Assembly: GCA_022787565.1 (NCBI GenBank)
Contig: JALFVN010000017.1
Span: 1-34,273 of the forward strand
Origin: Clostridiales bacterium
GTDB lineage: Bacteria > Bacillota > Clostridia > Oscillospirales > Oscillospiraceae
Length of the DNA stretch: 34,273 nt
Direction of reading: 5' to 3'
In this document: positions 5,497 through 31,941 of the stretch, piece by piece
Layout of the letters: every line of letters begins with the position of its first letter
How positions within the stretch are numbered: the first letter of the stretch is position 1
Notes under the pieces: model-generated
What the model was told of the DNA's origin: nothing
The model's database searches: none
The model's input: the letters and a program-made list of their open reading frames with translations, nothing else
Made by a program: the position numbers and the translations under genes

Positions 5497-5837
5497 AGAT
5501 TCCCCGATCCACCTGTCATACTGAACCCCGCAGGGGGTGAAGAATCCCGTAAACAGAACACCGAAGCCTCAGAATACGGGATCCTTCGCTCCGCTCAGGA
5601 TGACAGCGTTGATTTATGGCTTTCTTCCCATTGCCCGGGATGACAGAATATACGCAGCGAAGGTAAATGCGTAAAGACTCCCCCAATCCACCTGTCATTC
5701 TGAACCCCGCAGGGGGTGAAGAATCCCGTAAACAGAACACCGAAGCCTCAGAATACGGGATCCTTCGCTCCGCTCAGGATGACAGCGTTGATTTATGGCT
5801 TTCTTCGCATTGCCCGGGATGACAGAATATACGCAGC
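5481..5837. repeat. Tandem duplication of about 178 bp with palindromic core
   Basis: Two near-identical units lie head to tail, 5481-5658 and 5659-5837 (178 and 179 bases). They differ by a few substitutions and one inserted base. Each unit begins with the last 16 bases of the AraC-type gene (KVNA and stop), so the second copy carries a duplicate gene end. Each unit contains a palindromic element running from CTGTCAT (5513; 5692) to ATGACAG (ending 5606; 5785). The inner inverted pair is GAATCCCGTA / TACGGGATCC. This is the same family as the element at 20445-20536. No protein-coding signal is seen in either copy. Confidence 0.9.
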
Positions 5838-5854
5838 GACGGGAAAAAGGCATT

Positions 5855-5895
5855 AAAAAGGCGCATCCTGCTCATTTGAGCAGGATGCGCTTTTT
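5855..5895. terminator. Bidirectional terminator between the AraC-type gene and the PerR operon
   Basis: A perfect 14-base stem (GCGCATCCTGCTCA, 5861-5874, with its complement 5877-5890) is flanked by an A run on the left and a T run on the right. It can end transcription from both sides. It ends 13 bases before the stop of the minus-strand gene at 5904. Confidence 0.9.
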
Positions 5896-5903
5896 GGGTT
5901 CGC

Positions 5904-8021
5904 TTAATAATTTTCTTTTCTCTCTTCAAAGTAGCTCTGGGGATGGGCGCAGACGGGGCAGAGCTGGGGGGCCTTGGTGCCCACCACGATGTGGCCGCAG
6001 TTGCGGCACTCCCAGACCTTGACCTCGCTCTTTTCAAAGACAGAGGCGGTCTCCACATTCTTCAGCAGCGCCCGGTAGCGCTCCTCGTGGTGCTTCTCGA
6101 TGGCGCCCACCATGCGGAATTTAGCGGCCAGAGCGGGGAAGCCCTCCTCCTCGGCGGTCTTGGCAAAGCCGTCGTACATGTCGGTCCACTCGTAGTTCTC
6201 GCCCTCGGCGGCGTGGAGCAGATTTTCAGCGGTGCCGCCGATGCCGCCCAGCTCCTCAAACCAGAGCTTGGCGTGGGCCTGCTCATTCTCCGCCGTCTTC
6301 AAAAACAGCCCGGCGATCTGTTCAAAGCCCTGCTTTTTGGCAACGGAGGCAAAGAAGCTATATTTGTTCCGGGCCTGAGACTCGCCGGAAAAGGCCTCCT
6401 GCAGGTTCTTCTCCGTCTTTGTTCCGGCGTATTTGCTGCCGCCCTCCTCTTTCACCGGGGCGCTGAGCGGCTCCAGCATCTCCTTGCCCGCGCCGCAGCG
6501 GGGGCAGACGGCCTCTTCGCCGGGCTTGACTTCAAACTCCGCGCCGCAGAGCAGGCAACGGTATTTTACGCTCTCCCCGGACACGGGGGCTGGGGCCGCA
6601 GGGGCGGCAGCGGGCAGGGTAAAGGGTCTGGGCTCGCCCACATGGCGGATGCCGGTGTATCTGGCAATGTCGCTGTCGGTGGTGACCAGATTGTCCAGGG
6701 TCAGACCGTGGACGGAGCTGTGCCCCGTGACCCGGGCAAAGGTCTTCAGCTCGTTCAGGGACACGTTCAGGAAGTTTGCCACACGCTGGGCGGCGGCGTC
6801 CACCTTCAGCCGGGCCCGCAGCTCCGGGTCCTGGGTGGCCACGCCCACAGGGCACTTGCCGCTGCCACAGATACGGTACTGCTGGCAGGCGGCGGCGATC
6901 AGAGCCGCGCTGGCGATGGCCACGGCGTCAGCCCCCATGGCCAGAGCCTTGGCAAAGTCCGCGGAGACCCGCAGGCCGCCGGTGATGACCAGAGCGATGT
7001 CAGAGCCAACGGCGTCCAGATATTTTCTGGCCCGGCTCAGGGCGTAGAGGGTGGGAACGGTAGTGGCCTCCCGGAGAAACAGGGGACTGGAGCCGGTAGC
7101 GCCGCCACGGCCGTCGATGGTGATAAAGTCGGGCTGGGCGAAAACGCAGTATTCCAGATCCTGCTCAATGTTGCCGGCGGCGATCTTGATGCCGATGGGC
7201 CGTCCCTCAGACCGGCGGCGGAGCATGTCCACCATGTCCCGCAGGTCCTCTTTGGCGTTCAGCTCCGGGAACTTGCTGGGGCTCTGCACATCCTGGCCCT
7301 GCTTCTTGCCCCGGATGGCGGCGATCTCCGCCGTGACCTTCTCGCCGGGCAGGTGACCGCCCATGCCGGGCTTGGTGCCCTGGCCGATCTTGATCTCGAT
7401 GGCGTCGGAGGAGCGGAGGTTTTCGTCGGTGACGCTGTATTTATTGGGGATATACTCAAAAATGTACTTGTAGGCCGCCTCTTTCTCCTCGGGGAGAATG
7501 CCGCCCTCGCCGCTGCACATGGCGGTTCTGGCCATGGCGGAGCCTTTGGACAGCGCCACCTTCACCTCCCGGGACAGTGCGCCGAAGGACATGTGGGAGA
7601 TGTACACCGGGCTTTGCAGCACCATGGGCTTTCTGGCGTGCTTGCCGATGACGGTGGTGGTGTCCACCGGGTCATCGTCGTTCAGGGGAGGGGGATTGAG
7701 CTGGGAGCCCAGGAGCAGCACATCGTCCCAGCCGGGGACCTTCATCTGGGTGCCCATGGCCCCGCCGATGGTTTTGCCGGAAACGGCCATCTCGTGGATC
7801 TCGGCCATGTAGCGGCTGGCGCTGTCGTGACGGGCGGTGGCGGGATCATAATCCAGACTGCCGCCGTAGCTTTTGGCCGGGGCCGGGGCCTCTCCCTCCA
7901 CCGGGACCAGGTTGGACACCGGCATCCGGCACACCGGGCAGGCGTCCAGCTGGGAGAGGGGCTTGCCCTCTTTTTCCTCGTCGTAAATGGCGCCGCAGAT
8001 AATACATTTATAAACTGCCAT
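5904..8021 (-). CDS. Rubredoxin / FMN glutamate synthase / rubredoxin / rubrerythrin fusion protein
   Basis: This 705-residue protein joins four redox modules. First is a rubredoxin-like zinc/iron site (C6-x2-C9, C28-x2-C31). Residues about 60-480 form a glutamate synthase FMN domain, with [25 protein letters not shown] and the [3Fe-4S] motif C379-x5-C385-x4-C390 followed by PVGVATQ. A second rubredoxin-like site follows (C489, C492, C506, C509). Residues 529-705 are a complete rubrerythrin: a ferritin-like four-helix diiron domain with ENEQAH and EKHHEERY, then rubredoxin C672, C675, C688, C691. No glutamine amidotransferase domain is present. The rubrerythrin part should reduce peroxide; the FMN/Fe-S part may feed electrons to it or make glutamate from ammonia (inference). 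Start ATG 8021 has GGAGG 8 bases upstream. The PerR-like gene lies 15 bases upstream on the same strand, pointing to peroxide control. Related glutamate synthase-like and rubrerythrin proteins are normally separate. Confidence 0.93.
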
Positions 8022-8036
8022 AATTTTTACCTCCGA

Positions 8037-8432
8037 TCAATTTTCTTTCATTTTGCTGCTGCAATCGGGGCAGAGCCCCTCGAAAACGGTTCTGTGCCGG
8101 CTGATCTGAAAGCCGGTCTCCTCTGCCACCAGAGCGTCGTATTCATCGTGATAGCTGATGGGCGCGTCGAACACCCGGCCGCAGCCGGTGCAGAACAGGT
8201 GGTAGTGCCTGTCCGGCCGGGAGTCAAAGCGGTCTGCCGCCGGTACCTTCACGTTGCTGATCTGCCCGGAGGCTGACAGCAGGCCCAGGTTGCGGTATAC
8301 CGTGCCCCGGCTGATATGGCTGTCCTCCGCGCGCACATCCAGATAGATCTGGTCGGCGCTGGGGTGGTCGTGACGCTTTTCTACCGCCTCAAGGATCAGC
8401 TGCCGCTGTTTGGAACTGCGTTGGTTTTTCAT
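8037..8432 (-). CDS. perR: PerR-type peroxide-sensing Fur-family repressor
   Basis: The 131-residue protein aligns without gaps with Bacillus PerR over the metal sites at an offset of 14-15 residues. The regulatory Fe/Mn ligands are H23, D70, H76, H78 and D89. The structural zinc cysteines are C81-x2-C84 and C121-x2-C124. An Asp at position 89 (D104 in PerR) rather than Glu is the feature that separates PerR from Fur. The N-terminal winged helix includes HPSADQIY and ISRGTVYRNL. It is expected to repress peroxide-defence genes until iron-catalysed histidine oxidation releases it. It is the first gene of an operon with the fused oxidoreductase 15 bases downstream. The ATG at 8432 is preceded by AGGTGG; longer frames upstream include the promoter and are not used. 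PerR is assigned from residues, not a search. Confidence 0.88.
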   Translation of the reverse strand: MKNQRSSKQRQLILEAVEKRHDHPSADQIYLDVRAEDSHISRGTVYRNLGLLSASGQISNVKVPAADRFDSRPDRHYHLFCTGCGRVFDAPISYHDEYDALVAEETGFQISRHRTVFEGLCPDCSSKMKEN

Positions 8433-8462
8433 AGTAACCACCTGATAATAAGACTTGTTACT

Positions 8463-8491
8463 AATATAGAATGAAAATTCTCCCATGTCAA
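8463..8491 (-). promoter_or_regulatory. Promoter of the PerR operon with operator-like inverted repeat in the spacer
   Basis: On the minus strand a perfect TTGACA (8491-8486), a 17-base spacer and TATATT (8468-8463) precede perR, giving a leader of about 25 bases. The spacer contains an inverted repeat AGAAT-4-ATTCT (8468-8481). It resembles half of the AT-rich Per/Fur box and is placed where a repressor would block RNA polymerase. Autoregulation by PerR is the likely reading. Confidence 0.75.
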
Positions 8492-8970
8492 GTGAAAAAC
8501 ATTGAACACACGGCAAAAAAGCGTGCGATGCTGCCGGAAGGAGGCAGGGAAAACAGAGGAAAAATACATGCAGATTCCTGACAGACAAAACAGACCGGCG
8601 ACGCAGGGCAGGGGAAAACGATGTGGGTTCGCGTGCGGGGAAGAGGATTTGTGAATAAACGCTGCGCCCTTCCTTTGGCGTGCAATTGCACAGGCGCTGT
8701 GTGAAGAGCCTGCAGGATGGCGGCTGCTTCAAAGCCGCAGGCGGGCCTGTTCGGGAGAAAAATGGGAGACACTTTTTTACACTTTTTTAACCTTTGACCT
8801 TTCCAGTGCTGTATAATCGTTGTATAATCATTTCTGCTGAATAAACCGCAAAGCGGTCTGTTCACGCGGCGCACCGCGCCATTGGAAAGCACAGGATTTT
8901 TCAGGATTTGCTGGGATAAGCTTGCGCCGGACCAATGCCGGCCGGCCTTGAAAGCTACGGCCTTCAAGGC
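8492..8970. other. Gene-free spacer of about 480 bases with paired direct repeats
   Basis: No reading frame in this stretch looks like a protein. It contains two tandem pairs: ACACTTTTTT twice (8769-8778 and 8779-8788), and an 11-base TGTATAATCRT-like unit twice (8810-8820 and 8821-8831, with TATAAT at 8812-8817 and 8823-8828). Near the right end is an 8-base inverted repeat (GCCTTGAA / TTCAAGGC, 8945-8970) just before the -35 box of the next promoter. These may be regulator sites or a small RNA region; neither is shown. Confidence 0.4.
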
Positions 8971-8999
8971 TTGCAGCTTTGTACATTAAGCATTATAAT
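8971..8999 (+). promoter_or_regulatory. Promoter of the response regulator-kinase-HtrA operon
   Basis: TTGCAG (8971-8976), a 17-base spacer and a perfect TATAAT (8994-8999) lie about 50 bases before the start at 9053. An AGGAGG ribosome site stands at 9039-9045, 8 bases before the ATG. Confidence 0.75.
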
Positions 9000-9052
9000 T
9001 GAGTACAAAGCTTACGGTCAGGTTTTTCATCATAACATAGGAGGAGAAGTAC

Positions 9053-9736
9053 ATGAGTAAACGTGCTCTTATTGTTGAGGACGACAGCAATATCGCCGAG
9101 CTTCTGCGCCTGTATCTGGGCAAGGACGGCTTTGAGGTGATGATTGCCTCAGACGGCGGAAAGGCGGAAAGCAGCTTTGACCTTTTCGCGCCGGACGTGG
9201 TGCTGCTGGATATCATGCTGCCTGTAAAGGACGGCTGGCAGGTCTGCCGGGACATACGGAAGAAATCCTCCACACCCATAATAATGCTCACGGCAAAAGG
9301 GGAGACTAATGATAAGGTCAACGGCCTTGAAATGGGCGCGGACGACTATGTTACCAAGCCCTTTGAGATCAAGGAGCTTCTGGCCCGTGTCCACGCGGTC
9401 ATGCGCCGCAAGGACGGGGACGCGCCGGTGGAAAAAAAGCTCAGCTTCGACAAGCTGGTGATCAATCTTGATTCTTATGAGCTGATCGTGGACGGGAAGA
9501 AGATCGACACGCCGCCCAAGGAGATGGAGCTGCTGTTCCATCTGGCCTCCTCGCCCAACCGGGTATTCACCCGCAACCAGCTTCTTGACGAGGTCTGGGG
9601 CTTTGACTATTTCGGCGACTCCCGTACCGTGGACGTACATATCAAGCGTCTGCGGGAAAAGCTGGAGGGCGTTTCGGAAAAATGGTGTCTCAAGACCGTG
9701 TGGGGTGTGGGATATAAGTTCGAGGTCGTGGAATAA
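9053..9736 (+). CDS. OmpR/PhoB-family response regulator
   Basis: The 227-residue protein has a receiver domain (1-120) with the acidic pocket E9-D10-D11, phospho-acceptor D53, switch T80 and conserved K102. The C-terminal winged-helix DNA-binding domain (about 130-225) contains the family pattern RVFTRNQLLDEVWGFDYFGD and VDVHIKRLREKLE. It should be phosphorylated by the kinase encoded 3 bases downstream and bind direct-repeat sites. Possible autoregulatory repeats lie 8769-8831. The operon continues through the kinase into an HtrA protease. This is reminiscent of CssRS, which controls htrA genes in Bacillus, but the exact subfamily is not decided by sequence alone. Confidence 0.95.
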   Translation: MSKRALIVEDDSNIAELLRLYLGKDGFEVMIASDGGKAESSFDLFAPDVVLLDIMLPVKDGWQVCRDIRKKSSTPIIMLTAKGETNDKVNGLEMGADDYVTKPFEIKELLARVHAVMRRKDGDAPVEKKLSFDKLVINLDSYELIVDGKKIDTPPKEMELLFHLASSPNRVFTRNQLLDEVWGFDYFGDSRTVDVHIKRLREKLEGVSEKWCLKTVWGVGYKFEVVE

Positions 9737-13827: not shown

Positions 13828-16704
13828 ATGAAAAAGACGCTGTCAGCACTTCTCGCCGTACTGATGATCGTGTCTGTGTTTGCCTCGGGCACCACGGCCT
13901 ACGCAGACAGGGGATTCACCATGGAGGACGCGGAGAGAGTTTACAACAAAACGACCAATTTCGACCATATTGATATCCGTGTGGCCGGAAAGCTTACCAT
14001 AGACGGCGTGGAGACGCCCATCACCGTCTCTCACCCCAGAGTGACGGTTTACGTGCAGAATAGCGAAGGAAACGATGAGGCTATAGACAACTGGGAATTT
14101 GAAAACAACATCCGTTATGAGTGGCGTCAGACCGGACTCAGTGTGCCCAAGGACGCCAAAGTGGTCCTGACCTGCGATGTCACCATCAACGGCGAGCTGA
14201 GGAATGACCTGCAGTTCACTTTCCAGGGCAAGGATGACTTCGTCAAAGCCATTTACATCTGCGACGGGCATCAGGGCCTGGACTTTGAGGTGGATGAAGA
14301 GCAGGTCATGGAAGAGTATTTTTACCATGTCAGCTATCAGTGGACCGGCCTGCCCGACGGTCTGGCCACCCTTCCCACTGACGGCAATGACTATTCGGAA
14401 AATGATCTGGTCCTCGTAAACACCGGCTTTGTCAGCGGCGACACCCGCACCGATGGGGAGGGCAATATCTACACCTTCTCCGGCTGGACCGAATATGAGC
14501 CGGAGGGCAGCAGCCGGATAGCGCTCAACGGCGCAGCAAGCTTTGCCATCGCAGCCGACACCGTCATTTACGGCTCTTGGACGAAATATACGCCGCCCAC
14601 CACAGAGCCGGGCACCATCACCATCACCAAGAGCTTTGCGGGCCTGCCGGAAAATCTGCGCCCCGCCTCTGTCAGCTTCACCGTCACCGGCCCCAATGAT
14701 TTCAGCGAAACCGTGACGCTCAGCGCGGATAATCAGTGGAGCAGCACCATAAGCGGTCTCAGCGAGGGGACTTATACCATCACCGAAGGCGCGGCCGATG
14801 TGGACGGCTATGTCTGCGCCAGCAACTTCACCGACGGCAAGGCCACGGTGACCCTGGTCAAGAGCGCCCTTGATACGGAGACCAACAAATACACCATCAG
14901 TTCCGAGACTGTGGCTTTTGCCAATACCTACACCAAGCTGGGCAGCCTGAAAGTTGTCAAGGCTTTCGGCCTGGACAGCGAGCTGAACAAGAGCAGCGAG
15001 AACATCGGCAGCTTCAGCTTCACGATTACCGGCCCCAATGATTTCAACCGGACTGTAACGCTGCCCACGGCGGAGGGCGCATGGGAGATCAGCATCGACG
15101 GCCTGACCGCCGGTGAGTACACCGTCACCGAGGACGCCGCCTCCGCAGCCCGGGAGAGCTATAACCTGACCATCAACGGCACAGAGGCAGAGGACGATGC
15201 GGTCAAGGCCACCGTTGCCAACGGCAGCAGCGCTGAGGCCCAGATCACCAATACCTACAGCAAGAAGATGGGCGAGGATATCCACCATGCCGCAAGCTTC
15301 AAGGTCGTCAAGACCGACGAGCAGGGCACGGTCCTGCCCGGCGCAGAGTTCACCCTCTACGATAAGGAAAACGGTGTGGTAAACACCCGGACCACCGACA
15401 GCAAGGGCGAAGCCGTATTCAGCGGCTTCAGCAAAGAGGCTGAGTACACCCTGAAGGAGACCAAGGCCCCCGAGGGCTATGTGGCTTCCGAGCAGACCTG
15501 GACCGTCACCGTAAAGCTCAAAGACGGCGATCCCACCATTCAGATCAGCCAGGACGGCAGCTTCTGGAACAAGGTGTTCAACTGGGTCGTCAGCACCGAT
15601 CCTGACGGCGTGGACGGCGTTCTGACCGTTGTCAACAAGCAGAAGACCGGCTCTCTCACCGTCACCAAGACCGTGGAGAACAACAAGAAGCTGGGCCCCG
15701 AGGCCGAGGAATATACCTTCAGCCTGACCATCGACGGCCAGACCCAGAGCTTCAAGCTGAAGGACGGGGAGAGCAAGACCTTTGAAAACCTGCCCTACGG
15801 CACCGCCTATACCCTGCTGGAAGAGATCGGCGACGACGCCTCCTGGAACGTGGTGTCCCCCAAGGACGGCCTTGTTGAAGGCACCATCAGCCAGGACAGC
15901 ACCAAGGTAGAATTTGTCAACCGCTATGAGTACGCGGACAAGGGCGAAGTGGTGGTATTCTCTGCCGTAAAGCAGAATTCCAAGGACGGCAAGGCCCTTG
16001 CCGGTGCGGAATTTACCGTCTATTCCGATAAGGACCTGAAAAACCGCGTGGCCACTGCCACTACCGACGCCAATGGAAAGCTGGCTTTCGGCTTCAAGAG
16101 CGAGGGCAGCTTCTACCTGAAGGAGACTAAGGCCCCCAGCGGATACGTCCTCTCCGACAAGGTCGTTGAGCTCACCGTTTCCACCAAGAGCTATGCCGTG
16201 GAAAAGGTGAAAAATGAGGACAAAACCATCACCATGACCATCGTCCCCGTGCTGGAGCTGAAGGTCAAGGGGGCAGAGCTGCTCAGCGGCTCCACCAGCA
16301 TGTTCGTGCTGAAAAACGACCCGGAGACCTATATTGACATCACCGTGAACAAGGTCTGGGTCAACGATAAGGAATCGGGCAAGCGCCCCGAAACCATCAC
16401 TGTCACCCTCTACAAGGACGGCGAAAAGTATGACAGCAAGACCCTCAGTGCCAAGACCAACTGGAGCTGCACCTGGAAGGATCTGCCCAGCCAGTACAAG
16501 TGGACCGTGGATGAAAACAGCGTCCCCGCAGGCTACAACAAGAAGATCAGCCTGAAGGATACTACCTTCACCATTACCAACACCTATGGCTCCATCGTCC
16601 AGACCGGCGATAGCAGCGCCCCCATCCTGTGGGCCCTGCTGGCCATGACCACAGCCGCCGGCGCGGTGCTGACCGTGAAGAAGCTCCGCAAGAGTAAGAG
16701 CTGA
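13828..16704 (+). CDS. Secreted, wall-anchored surface protein with Cna-B/SpaA repeats
   Basis: The 958-residue protein has a signal peptide (MKKTLSALLAVLMIVSVFAS, cleavage near residue 26). A unique N-terminal region follows (about 27-165), then a SHIRT-like module (about 165-260, ending VIYGSWTKY). Next come five or six transthyretin-like Cna-B/SpaA domains (about 265-915) with repeating NTYTK and VNKQKTG linkers. At least two, KVVKTDEQG ... LKETKAPEGY and the later VKQNSKDG ... LKETKAPSGY, have the Lys/Glu residues that form intramolecular isopeptide bonds in pilins. The C-terminus is a sortase-type signal: QTGD (925-928), a hydrophobic helix and the basic tail KKLRKSKS. The motif reads IVQTGD, not LPxTG. 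It is probably an adhesin or pilin-like protein. No sortase gene lies in the window. An AGGAGG site precedes ATG 13828, and a terminator follows. Confidence 0.9.
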   Translation: MKKTLSALLAVLMIVSVFASGTTAYADRGFTMEDAERVYNKTTNFDHIDIRVAGKLTIDGVETPITVSHPRVTVYVQNSEGNDEAIDNWEFENNIRYEWRQTGLSVPKDAKVVLTCDVTINGELRNDLQFTFQGKDDFVKAIYICDGHQGLDFEVDEEQVMEEYFYHVSYQWTGLPDGLATLPTDGNDYSENDLVLVNTGFVSGDTRTDGEGNIYTFSGWTEYEPEGSSRIALNGAASFAIAADTVIYGSWTKYTPPTTEPGTITITKSFAGLPENLRPASVSFTVTGPNDFSETVTLSADNQWSSTISGLSEGTYTITEGAADVDGYVCASNFTDGKATVTLVKSALDTETNKYTISSETVAFANTYTKLGSLKVVKAFGLDSELNKSSENIGSFSFTITGPNDFNRTVTLPTAEGAWEISIDGLTAGEYTVTEDAASAARESYNLTINGTEAEDDAVKATVANGSSAEAQITNTYSKKMGEDIHHAASFKVVKTDEQGTVLPGAEFTLYDKENGVVNTRTTDSKGEAVFSGFSKEAEYTLKETKAPEGYVASEQTWTVTVKLKDGDPTIQISQDGSFWNKVFNWVVSTDPDGVDGVLTVVNKQKTGSLTVTKTVENNKKLGPEAEEYTFSLTIDGQTQSFKLKDGESKTFENLPYGTAYTLLEEIGDDASWNVVSPKDGLVEGTISQDSTKVEFVNRYEYADKGEVVVFSAVKQNSKDGKALAGAEFTVYSDKDLKNRVATATTDANGKLAFGFKSEGSFYLKETKAPSGYVLSDKVVELTVSTKSYAVEKVKNEDKTITMTIVPVLELKVKGAELLSGSTSMFVLKNDPETYIDITVNKVWVNDKESGKRPETITVTLYKDGEKYDSKTLSAKTNWSCTWKDLPSQYKWTVDENSVPAGYNKKISLKDTTFTITNTYGSIVQTGDSSAPILWALLAMTTAAGAVLTVKKLRKSKS

Positions 16705-20444: not shown

Positions 20445-20536
20445 CTGTCATCCTGAGCGCAGCGAAGGATCCCGTTTGGCTACGCGGCCTGTTCTTTTTG
20501 CGGGATTCTTCACCGCTTCACAGCTCGGAATGACAG
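20445..20536. repeat. Palindromic intergenic element, same family as at 5513-5785
   Basis: The element runs from CTGTCAT (20445) to ATGACAG (20536), with inner GGATCCCG / CGGGATTC arms. It can fold into a long imperfect hairpin. It shares outer ends and arm order with the two units at 5513-5606 and 5692-5785, while the centre differs. It looks like a dispersed REP/MITE-like intergenic repeat without coding capacity. Confidence 0.75.
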
Positions 20537-31250: not shown

Positions 31251-31941
31251 GAGCAGCAGCGCCCTCATTACCTTAAACGGCAGCTCCGCCTCCTGCGATT
31301 CCGATGCGGTTTCCATCTCCGAAAGCACGGTTACCATCAGGGACGAGGGTACCTATATCCTCTCCGGCACGCTGAATGAGGGCATGATTATAGTTGACAC
31401 CGAAAAGACCGATAAGATCCAGTTGATTCTGGACGGCGTCAGCGTTTACAGCGAGACCTCTGCGGCCCTCAATGTCCGTCAGGCAGACAAGGCGTTTATC
31501 ACTCTGGCCGACGGAACAGAGAACAGCCTGACAAACGGCGGCAGCCTTTATGTCAATGCCTCCGGCGACGGGCTGAACGCCAACGGAAACCTGACCATCT
31601 CCGGCGGATACACCGTGGTCTGCGGTCCCACCCAGGGAGATACCGCCACCCTGGACTACGAGAGCAGCGGCGTGATCACCGGCGGCACCTTTATCGGCAC
31701 CGGGGCCGCAGGAATGGCCCAGACCTTCAGTGACTCCGAACAGGGCGTGATCGCCGTGAGCGCGGGCAGCTGTGCCGCCGGAACGGCCATTACGCTGACG
31801 GACGCAAAGGGAAATACCATCATCAGTTATTCTCCGGGGGTTTCCTTTTCAGTGGTGATTCTGAGCAGCCCGGAGATCATCAAGGGCCAGCCTTACACCA
31901 TCACCGTGGGCTCCGCCAGCGGAAGCTTTGAAGCCGCATAA
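31249..31941 (+). pseudogene. Remnant of a DUF4353/Cthe_2159-type carbohydrate-binding beta-helix protein
   Basis: The plus frame is open from 31249 to the TAA at 31941. It shows [49 protein letters not shown] and ITLADGTENSLTNGG. The C-terminal parts are VNASGDGLNANGNLTISGG, GGTFIGTGAAGMAQTFS and the end strands TLTDAKGNTIISYSP and VVILSSPEI. This matches the DUF4353 family, secreted right-handed beta-helix proteins; Cthe_2159 binds pectic polymers. The signal peptide and first part are missing. About 200 or more residues of the central repeats also appear deleted between NSLTNGG and LYVNASGDG (near 31540). No ribosome site precedes the first ATG (31384), so an active 185-residue product is unlikely. 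Confidence 0.82.

Follow-up and report, generated by a model that had tools for sequence, protein, structure and literature searches.

In C. difficile, the 480-amino acid (aa) protein CD0828 (CD630_08280) combines an N-terminal rubredoxin (Rd) with a domain resembling glutamate synthase (GltS), and it is encoded by the fourth gene of the rbr-perR-sor-CD0828 operon (PMC11980386). The accessible part of that report states that survival of hydrogen peroxide (H2O2) was lowered by 3–5 logs in a CD0828 mutant, and likewise in a mutant of rbr, the rubrerythrin (Rbr) gene. CD0828 was fully but slowly reduced by NADH, it was reduced by NADPH only after the addition of free flavin mononucleotide (FMN), and its electron transfer to Rbr in vitro was slow (~200 s) (PMC11980386). 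The same text names the reductant of rubrerythrin in C. difficile as an open question and leaves room for a new type of Rd reductase (PMC11980386). Here, we analyzed a 34,273-nucleotide (nt) contig of a Clostridiales bacterium from the Oscillospiraceae (JALFVN010000017.1, assembly GCA_022787565.1), called below the window, with its genome denoted G000. On its minus strand a single gene encodes an Rd, a GltS-type domain, a second Rd, and a rubrerythrin in one polypeptide chain. It is likely that this fusion is a PerR-linked peroxide-reducing protein, in which Rd-rubrerythrin, the acceptor, is covalently joined to a reductase arm of the CD0828 type.

When compared by description, the window protein and CD0828 share the N-terminal Rd, the GltS-like FMN/[3Fe-4S] domain and the peroxide regulon, while CD0828 is shorter and is not joined to Rbr, which is a separate gene of its operon (accessible parts of PMC11980386, PMC8546684, and PMC11841134). 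The features that define the CD0828 type, which are an N-terminal Rd followed by GltS without glutaminase, and linkage to perR, were all found in the window. Classical rubrerythrins (9fj2; D. vulgaris 1ryt) have the same diiron domain and C-terminal Rd, but they are only ~180–190 aa long and rely on separate electron donors. The FMN barrel and the [3Fe-4S] motif align with the large subunit of glutamate synthase (GltB, Fd-GltS; 7mfm, 1llw, 1ea0), from which the window protein differs by the lack of the glutaminase part, by a histidine in place of Q978, and by the Rd at its N terminus. A short GltS domain preceded by iron–sulfur carriers is also described in the accessible part of the report on type 5 CDGSH proteins, where the carriers are CDGSH and Fer4 rather than Rd, and Rbr is not part of the described architecture (PMC3174974). 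In the BOOR system, as far as its accessible description goes, a substrate-oxidizing flavoprotein with a tethered Rd (acyl-CoA dehydrogenase–electron-transferring flavoprotein–Rd) serves an oxygen-detoxifying diiron acceptor, but the flavoprotein is unrelated, the substrate reduced is O2, and the acceptor, a flavodiiron protein, is a separate protein (PMC13404960). Finally, a protein of Roseburia sp. 831b (WP_075681311, L032) carries a reductase arm on Rd-Rbr, contains an internal ATG with a Shine–Dalgarno sequence, and is preceded by a gene with a transcriptional repressor annotation; it differs in that a Flavin_Reduct arm replaces Rd-GltS.

Anatomy and gene context of the fusion

The initial annotation of this DNA had read the gene as one open frame for a four-part redox fusion, which was borne out by the following features:

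5904..8021, minus strand: fusion gene Rd-GltS-Rd-Rbr(Rd), 705 aa, ATG to TAA, no internal stops
7878..8021, minus strand: N-terminal Rd-like module, residues 1–48 (C6, C9, C28, C31)
6627..7856, minus strand: GltS-type FMN/[3Fe-4S] domain, residues 56–465, aligning with 7mfm, 1llw, 2vdc, and 1ea0
6852..6887, minus strand: [3Fe-4S] motif C379-x5-C385-x4-C390, aligning with the cysteines of solved GltS
6564..6635, minus strand: Pro/Ala-rich hinge joining GltS to the second Rd
6456..6569, minus strand: middle Rd-like module, residues 485–522, with CxxC pairs
6015..6431, minus strand: Rbr diiron four-helix domain, residues 531–669 (PF02915 above cut-off; 9fj2, 1ryt)
5907..6014, minus strand: C-terminal Rd of rubrerythrin, residues 670–705 (C672, C675, C688, C691)

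The GltS-type domain matched Glu_synthase PF01645 at residues 125–433 with 312.6 bits (cut-off 20.4). Its [3Fe-4S] motif had been recognized already in the initial annotation, and the three cysteines, as well as C6, C9, C28, and C31 of the N-terminal module, proved invariant among 41 aligned sequences. The proposal of a full rubrerythrin with its own Rd also held, because the rubrerythrin profile NF045767 matched residues 531–705 with 235 bits, exceeding the cut-off of 200, and the Rbr-type Rd PF21349 matched residues 670–699 with 57.1 bits (cut-off 26.5). Seven residues that we take to be the Rbr diiron ligands (E547, E580, H583, E608, E611, E642, and H645) each show conservation of 90% or more across 40 sequences. 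The two remaining Rd-like sites both have CxxC pairs, and in the case of the N-terminal module the family profile matched solved rubredoxins across positions 1–41 (best E 1.1e-5), but both stay below the cut-offs of hidden Markov models (HMMs), with 17.6 bits against PF00301 (cut-off 23) for the N-terminal module, and 21.8 bits against PF21349 (26.5) and 17.4 bits against PF00301 (23) for the middle one. The middle position holds a more Rd-like sequence in relatives than in the window. No Pfam match to a glutaminase (amidotransferase) domain was found anywhere in the 705 aa, in agreement with the earlier reading, and neither Pfam nor NCBIfam revealed an NAD(P)H-binding domain in the protein. 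An antisense open frame of 777 aa (5943–8276, plus strand) covers nearly the whole fusion gene, and codon composition most likely accounts for it.

The possibility, raised in the initial annotation, that a stop or frameshift at residues ~510–530 separates the protein into two is excluded by genes 93–94% identical in other assemblies, which keep the same open frame (L051 over its whole length, L052 to the contig end). An assembly artefact or a misbinned contig was ruled out by these near-identical genes and by the RelA protein of the window, which is 77–85% identical to that of 10 same-genus genomes and 45–51% identical to that of 6 genomes of other families.

The gene context comprises three further features:

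8037..8432, minus strand: gene of a perR-like regulator (Fur family), 15 bp ahead of the fusion, with the start codon picked by eye
8463..8491, minus strand: promoter-like site TTGACA-17-TATATT ahead of perR, 11/12 matches
5861..5890, minus strand: intrinsic terminator-like hairpin 3′ of the fusion gene, 13 pairs and a T tail

The perR-like product belongs to the Fur family (FUR PF01475, 77.6 bits), and its top NCBIfam match was PerR NF047406, with 87.5 bits, under the cut-off of 200. In the region 5700–9100 five promoter-like sites were seen versus a mean of 1.0 in shuffles. The corresponding numbers for terminator-like sites were one and 4.0, and because this number is not above that in shuffles, the case for the hairpin rests on its position and stem length. 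Taken together, the promoter-like site, the perR-like gene, the fusion, and the terminator-like hairpin make the window appear to hold a two-gene unit, perR-fusion. A dispersed repeat, TGAGCGNAGCGAAGNATC, occurs at window positions 5580–5600 and 5759–5779 (minus strand), directly downstream of the fusion gene, and at 20451–20471 (plus strand); at up to one mismatch it was found in 47 places in G000, while the reversed pattern was found in none.

The proposed donor–acceptor pair and its distribution

To see how the two halves are arranged elsewhere, relatives in named genomes were ranked with the full-length query and the best 80 of 587 were compared. Fused genes made up 51 of these 80 (four of which reach a contig end), while 7 genes were separated by a stop from a neighboring Rbr, 17 were plain, and 2 were cut. 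The remaining three (L105, L106, and L111) are Rd-GltS-Rd proteins of 509–516 aa, which have a C-terminal Rd-like CxxC pair and are without Rbr. Because the query was full length, this list is biased to fused genes, and the fused-to-split ratio was therefore left unused. Ten further distinct fused genomes were found (L034, L036, L037, L146, L147, L149, L153, L154, L155, and L157), and several others repeat named ones. Two strains without a metagenome-assembly mark in their titles, Faecalicatena contorta ET51 (L062) and Bacterium D16-36 (L095), also carry the fusion, and G846, the genome of L089, has three Rbr-bearing open frames of 683–692 aa, apparently fusion paralogues, and one free Rbr. 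The middle Rd was present in 39 of 52 fused frames and absent in 13. Hence, the search for the same domain order suggested in the initial annotation showed that the architecture is not unique, while no paper describing it was found: neither the fusion nor an internal start in it is described among the literature matches listed, a search outside of which most subscription literature lies. The architecture is a new variant built from known parts.

In a class sample of 391 evenly spread genomes, 17, including that of the window, had Rd-GltS at E ≤ 1e-100; judged by open-frame length, 6 were fused, 10 unfused, and 1 cut by a contig end. An 18th match, L050, which begins at query residue 63, was excluded from the Rd type. 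A phylum sample of 398 genomes gave 14 matches, which were 9 other short GltS types and 5 of the Rd type (that of the window, one more fused, two unfused, and one cut). Rd-GltS was fused in 7/8 and 10/17 cases (one of the 17 being cut) in the two most fusion-rich families, and only one other genome, G012, among 36 of the same genus, many of them incomplete, contained the fusion.

The linkage to PerR differed between these groups. Among the best 80 of 587, a PerR-like gene ended at most 120 nt upstream of 26/51 named fused genes and 2/7 stop-separated ones, while it did so in none of the 17 plain unfused genes, so that PerR linkage tracks the Rbr partner. Sixteen unfused genes, obtained by searches with the GltS half alone, were inspected with flanks of up to 1.5 kb. 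Five of them adjoin perR, sor, or rbr: L046 has the gene order rbr-perR-sor-Rd-GltS, both L047 and L048 have perR-rbr-Rd-GltS, and Rd-GltS is preceded by perR in L043 and, immediately, by a weaker rbr-like gene in L136. A stop-separated Rbr downstream was found within these flanks in none of the 16.

Both halves are also found with other partners. The partner slot of Rd-Rbr is filled by a flavin-reductase domain in L032 and by a 4Fe-4S domain in L006, and the N-terminal carriers of short GltS domains vary between Rd, CDGSH-Fer4-CDGSH (L137), and a ferredoxin-like part (L143, from its cysteine pattern). Since partner modules vary on each, both halves look like exchangeable ends of an electron chain. 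The other Rd-Rbr fusions seen (L004, L005, L006, L007, L008, and L032) have frames of 391–408 aa; the two identified with Pfam are L006 (Fer4-Rd-Rbr) and L032 (flavin reductase-Rd-Rbr). L006 has a separate 209-aa Rd-x-Rd protein upstream. The frames L137–L142 are short GltS frames of ~620–638 aa with CDGSH motifs in front, near the published type 5 CDGSH architecture, with L137 assigned by Pfam (CDGSH, Fer4_19, CDGSH, GltS) and L138–L142 by eye.

Genes that are found both separate and fused usually work together. On the level of sequence, the fusion is Rosetta-stone evidence for proteins of the CD0828 type as electron donors to Rbr, contrary to the tentative conclusion in the accessible text of PMC11980386. 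Between the two roles offered in the initial annotation, that of a peroxide reductase fed by tethered flavin/Fe-S and Rd modules is favored by the PerR linkage, the CD0828 operon, the repeated fusion or neighborhood with Rbr, and the alternative arms. We infer the following route for it. A reductant would pass electrons to FMN, from which they would move through the [3Fe-4S] cluster to the tethered rubredoxins; these would reduce the Rd/diiron site of Rbr, where H2O2 would be turned into water. Glutamate, reduced ferredoxin, and NADH are the candidate reductants, and the reductant is the weakest step of the route.

Several observations weigh against this assignment. According to the accessible part of PMC11980386, the ~200 s transfer led its authors to deem CD0828 an unlikely in vivo donor, and C. 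difficile sor and bcp mutants were as sensitive to H2O2 as the CD0828 mutant. The lack of a PerR-like gene close upstream of all 17 plain genes belongs here as well, as does the finding that perR, rbr, and sor are all missing from the inspected flanks of 11 of the 16 unfused genes. A good PerR box is absent from the window, where the best match had 5 mismatches versus 5.5 in shuffles; matches with at most 3 mismatches were present in 15 of 28 perR upstream regions (mean best 3.25 vs. 4.69 in block shuffles). The top HMM match of the middle module was a zinc ribbon, PF09723, with 23.5 bits, itself below the cut-off of 34.4, and by HMM this module is as similar to zinc ribbons as to rubredoxins.

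The fusion gene has probably moved horizontally. Over its full length the protein shares 78% identity with its counterpart in G418, which belongs to another family, and 72% with that of the congener G012, while RelA reverses this order (48% and 79%, respectively), and because the two sets of identities point in opposite ways, transfer is the likely explanation on sequence grounds. On a GltS tree of 109 rows, the label "fused" changes 16 times, or 14 times without cut rows, and well-supported branches force at least 5 changes of fusion state. This tree was made by a quick method with long-branch warnings, and 37 of its 104 inner branches are open and many forks weakly supported, which tempers the case for transfer. 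A Lachnospiraceae-rich clade of 12 rows (L089, L091, L092, L094–L099, L101, L104, and L117) consists of genes that are fused without the middle Rd or stop-separated (four members), whereas most other fused genes have the middle Rd.

Glutamate as product or reductant

The GltS-type domain could also be explained by a biosynthetic role, in which it would still form glutamate from 2-oxoglutarate and free ammonia, while the tethered Rbr would shield its oxygen-sensitive FMN/[3Fe-4S] centers. The residues E903, K966, Q969, K972, Q978, and R992 of Synechocystis GltS are presumably its 2-oxoglutarate ligands. Five of them (E903, K966, Q969, K972, and R992) align with E172, K211, Q214, K217, and R237 of the fusion, which are invariant in 41 sequences and speak for glutamate formation, but the sixth, Q978, corresponds to H223 in all 41. 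Annotations in C. difficile name CD0828 either as glutamate synthase or as a glutamate-synthase-like glutamate dehydrogenase, which points the same way as the five ligands, and so does the fact that GltB was not found in the window genome. On the other hand, that genome has a gene of the Glu/Leu/Phe/Val-dehydrogenase family, probably a glutamate dehydrogenase, the fusion is without a glutaminase domain, and the potential of rubredoxin is too high to power glutamate synthesis. Full-length GltB (open frames >1500 aa) coexists with the fusion in 3 of the 9 fused genomes searched (G447, G448, and G311). Overall, glutamate formation by the fusion seems very improbable, and the suggestion in the initial annotation of a glutamate synthase protected by Rbr was not supported, in view of the missing glutaminase domain and the coexisting GltB. 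That the fusion replaces glutamate synthase (GOGAT) was ruled out by the same three genomes. Four others (G418, G295, G253, and G346) had just weak PF04898 matches (best 27–34 bits, frames ~500 aa), and among the nine G000 and G012 had none.

Alternatively, the domain could run in reverse, so that glutamate or a similar amino acid would be oxidized to 2-oxoglutarate and ammonia, with the electrons passing via the rubredoxins to Rbr, which is a form of the peroxide-reducing role preferred above. The retention of most of the presumed 2-oxoglutarate site is consistent with this, and because five of the six ligands are invariant, glutamate as an electron source is a real possibility. The potentials are about −120 mV for glutamate, near 0 mV for Rd, and above +200 mV for the Rbr diiron site, which would allow such a flow. 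No NAD(P)H-binding domain was detected with the two profile collections, and the sluggish use of NADH by CD0828, together with its need of free FMN for NADPH, would fit another reductant (accessible part of PMC11980386). BOOR offers, in its accessible description, a precedent for a carbon substrate coupled to O2 reduction via a fused flavoprotein-Rd (PMC13404960). However, the reduction of CD0828 by NADH is complete (PMC11980386, same part), and the Gln-to-His change may shift the substrate. We therefore regard glutamate oxidation as a tentative and still somewhat doubtful choice of reductant.

Probable internal starts at the fusion junction

Where GltS meets the Rbr unit and a free gene would begin, 46 of 52 fused frames contain an in-frame ATG. 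The window is different:

6567..6578, minus strand: internal-start remnant, GGGGAG then GTA in place of ATG; relatives mostly have AGGAG-type letters ahead of ATG

The junction codon is GTA in the window gene and L051 and GTG in L052, in each case behind a Pro/Ala-rich hinge, and TTG replaces the ATG in L034. The GTA codon implies that the window gene should make only the fusion. Judged from these codons, the clade of the window has lost the internal start and is a committed fusion.

Of the 46 junction ATGs, 45 have a Shine–Dalgarno sequence at −5 kcal/mol or better (for L092 the better of two ATGs was taken). The mean duplex energy with the 16S tail was −9.84 kcal/mol for junction ATGs and −10.40 for the 52 own starts of the genes, while it was −2.79 for 859 other in-frame ATGs and −2.17 for 1087 out-of-frame ones. 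The linkers, measured in the same 46 frames, are 14–37 codons long and unalike, even though 35 of the fused proteins are 67–93% identical to that of the window; shuffled linkers stay open in a fraction of 0.32, and a stop is present in the +1 frame in 28 and in the +2 frame in 35. In the 30 junctions in which Lys-Glu stands shortly before Met, AAG was used in 29/30 and GAG in 29/30, as compared to about 1:1 in the same genes overall. Nearby codons in 34 junctions were less one-sided for the first Cys (TGT 22, TGC 12) and the preceding Lys (AAA 13, AAG 6), and Tyr was TAC in 21 and TAT in 3. The motif GGAG was found in 41 junctions, in one reading frame in 34 and in another in 7. Twelve fused genes fetched later all had the ATG, with sites at −8.9 or better; seven of them are new sequences, all of which repeat the feature, and five are the same as earlier ones. 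Six other Rbr fusions (L004–L008 and L032) likewise have an in-frame ATG with a Shine–Dalgarno sequence where the Rd or Rbr unit begins. Since the site persists while the length and letters of the linker vary, dual output is probable, and most fused genes examined probably also make a free (Rd-)Rbr.

This interpretation has to be weighed against the possibility that the internal sites are functionless relics of a recent joining of two genes, with all product being the fusion. The seven stop-separated neighbors show the same gene pair unfused, and the loss of the ATG in 6 of 52 fused frames, including that of the window, means that it is dispensable somewhere. When the linker peptides were kept, 24% of random synonymous recodings bound the 16S tail equally well, and 17% of the in-frame ATGs elsewhere have a value of −5 or lower; the Lys-Glu-rich linker itself thus accounts for part of the Shine–Dalgarno signal. 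The fused sequences also share kinship, so that these statistics are not independent trials. However, the recoded mean was −6.26 versus −10.11 observed, with the observed value better than the recoded mean in 44/46. The retention of the site with one-sided synonymous codons in diverging linkers, its occurrence in more than one reading frame, and its recurrence in newly fetched genes and in other Rbr fusions all argue that the sites are more than relics, and we consider the relic explanation unlikely.

If the internal start is used in the relatives, the free (Rd-)Rbr and the fused subunits could share one Rbr oligomer, in which several diiron sites could draw on a single reductase arm. The window gene would yield the fusion as its sole product, and free Rbr would be supplied by other loci, for which the genome has two more Rbr copies (83% and 74% identity) that could provide subunits. 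Another Rbr gene was found in 4 of the 6 genomes without the junction ATG (at least 64% identity), and in 8 of the 14 searched of the 46 with it (at least 58%). The proposals could be joined, so that one stop-free frame would encode a tethered peroxide reductase driven by glutamate as well as free Rbr made from the conserved internal start, with a few glutamate-oxidizing arms feeding many diiron sites in mixed oligomers, and with the window clade having an obligate single-chain enzyme; that all of this holds together is rather improbable.

Elsewhere in the window, a protein of 958 aa carrying SpaA, Cna_B, and related domains (13828–16704, plus strand) is probably a surface protein. The frame at 31384–31941 (plus strand) matches just positions 23–76 of the 262-position Cthe_2159 carbohydrate-binding profile, and is possibly a degraded or interrupted gene. 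The window had no Rfam match at gathering thresholds.

Three points go beyond the initial annotation: the precedent of CD0828, the PerR-like gene immediately upstream, and, as the most surprising part, the internal start of relatives. Natural fusions of CD0828-type proteins with Rbr let the question of the Rbr reductant be addressed with one purified chain. If the internal start is used, databases list one product for genes that have two, and these genes would have a simple means of balancing the number of reductase arms against that of peroxidase subunits. Should glutamate be the reductant, the removal of peroxide in anaerobes would be paid for directly by an abundant metabolite.

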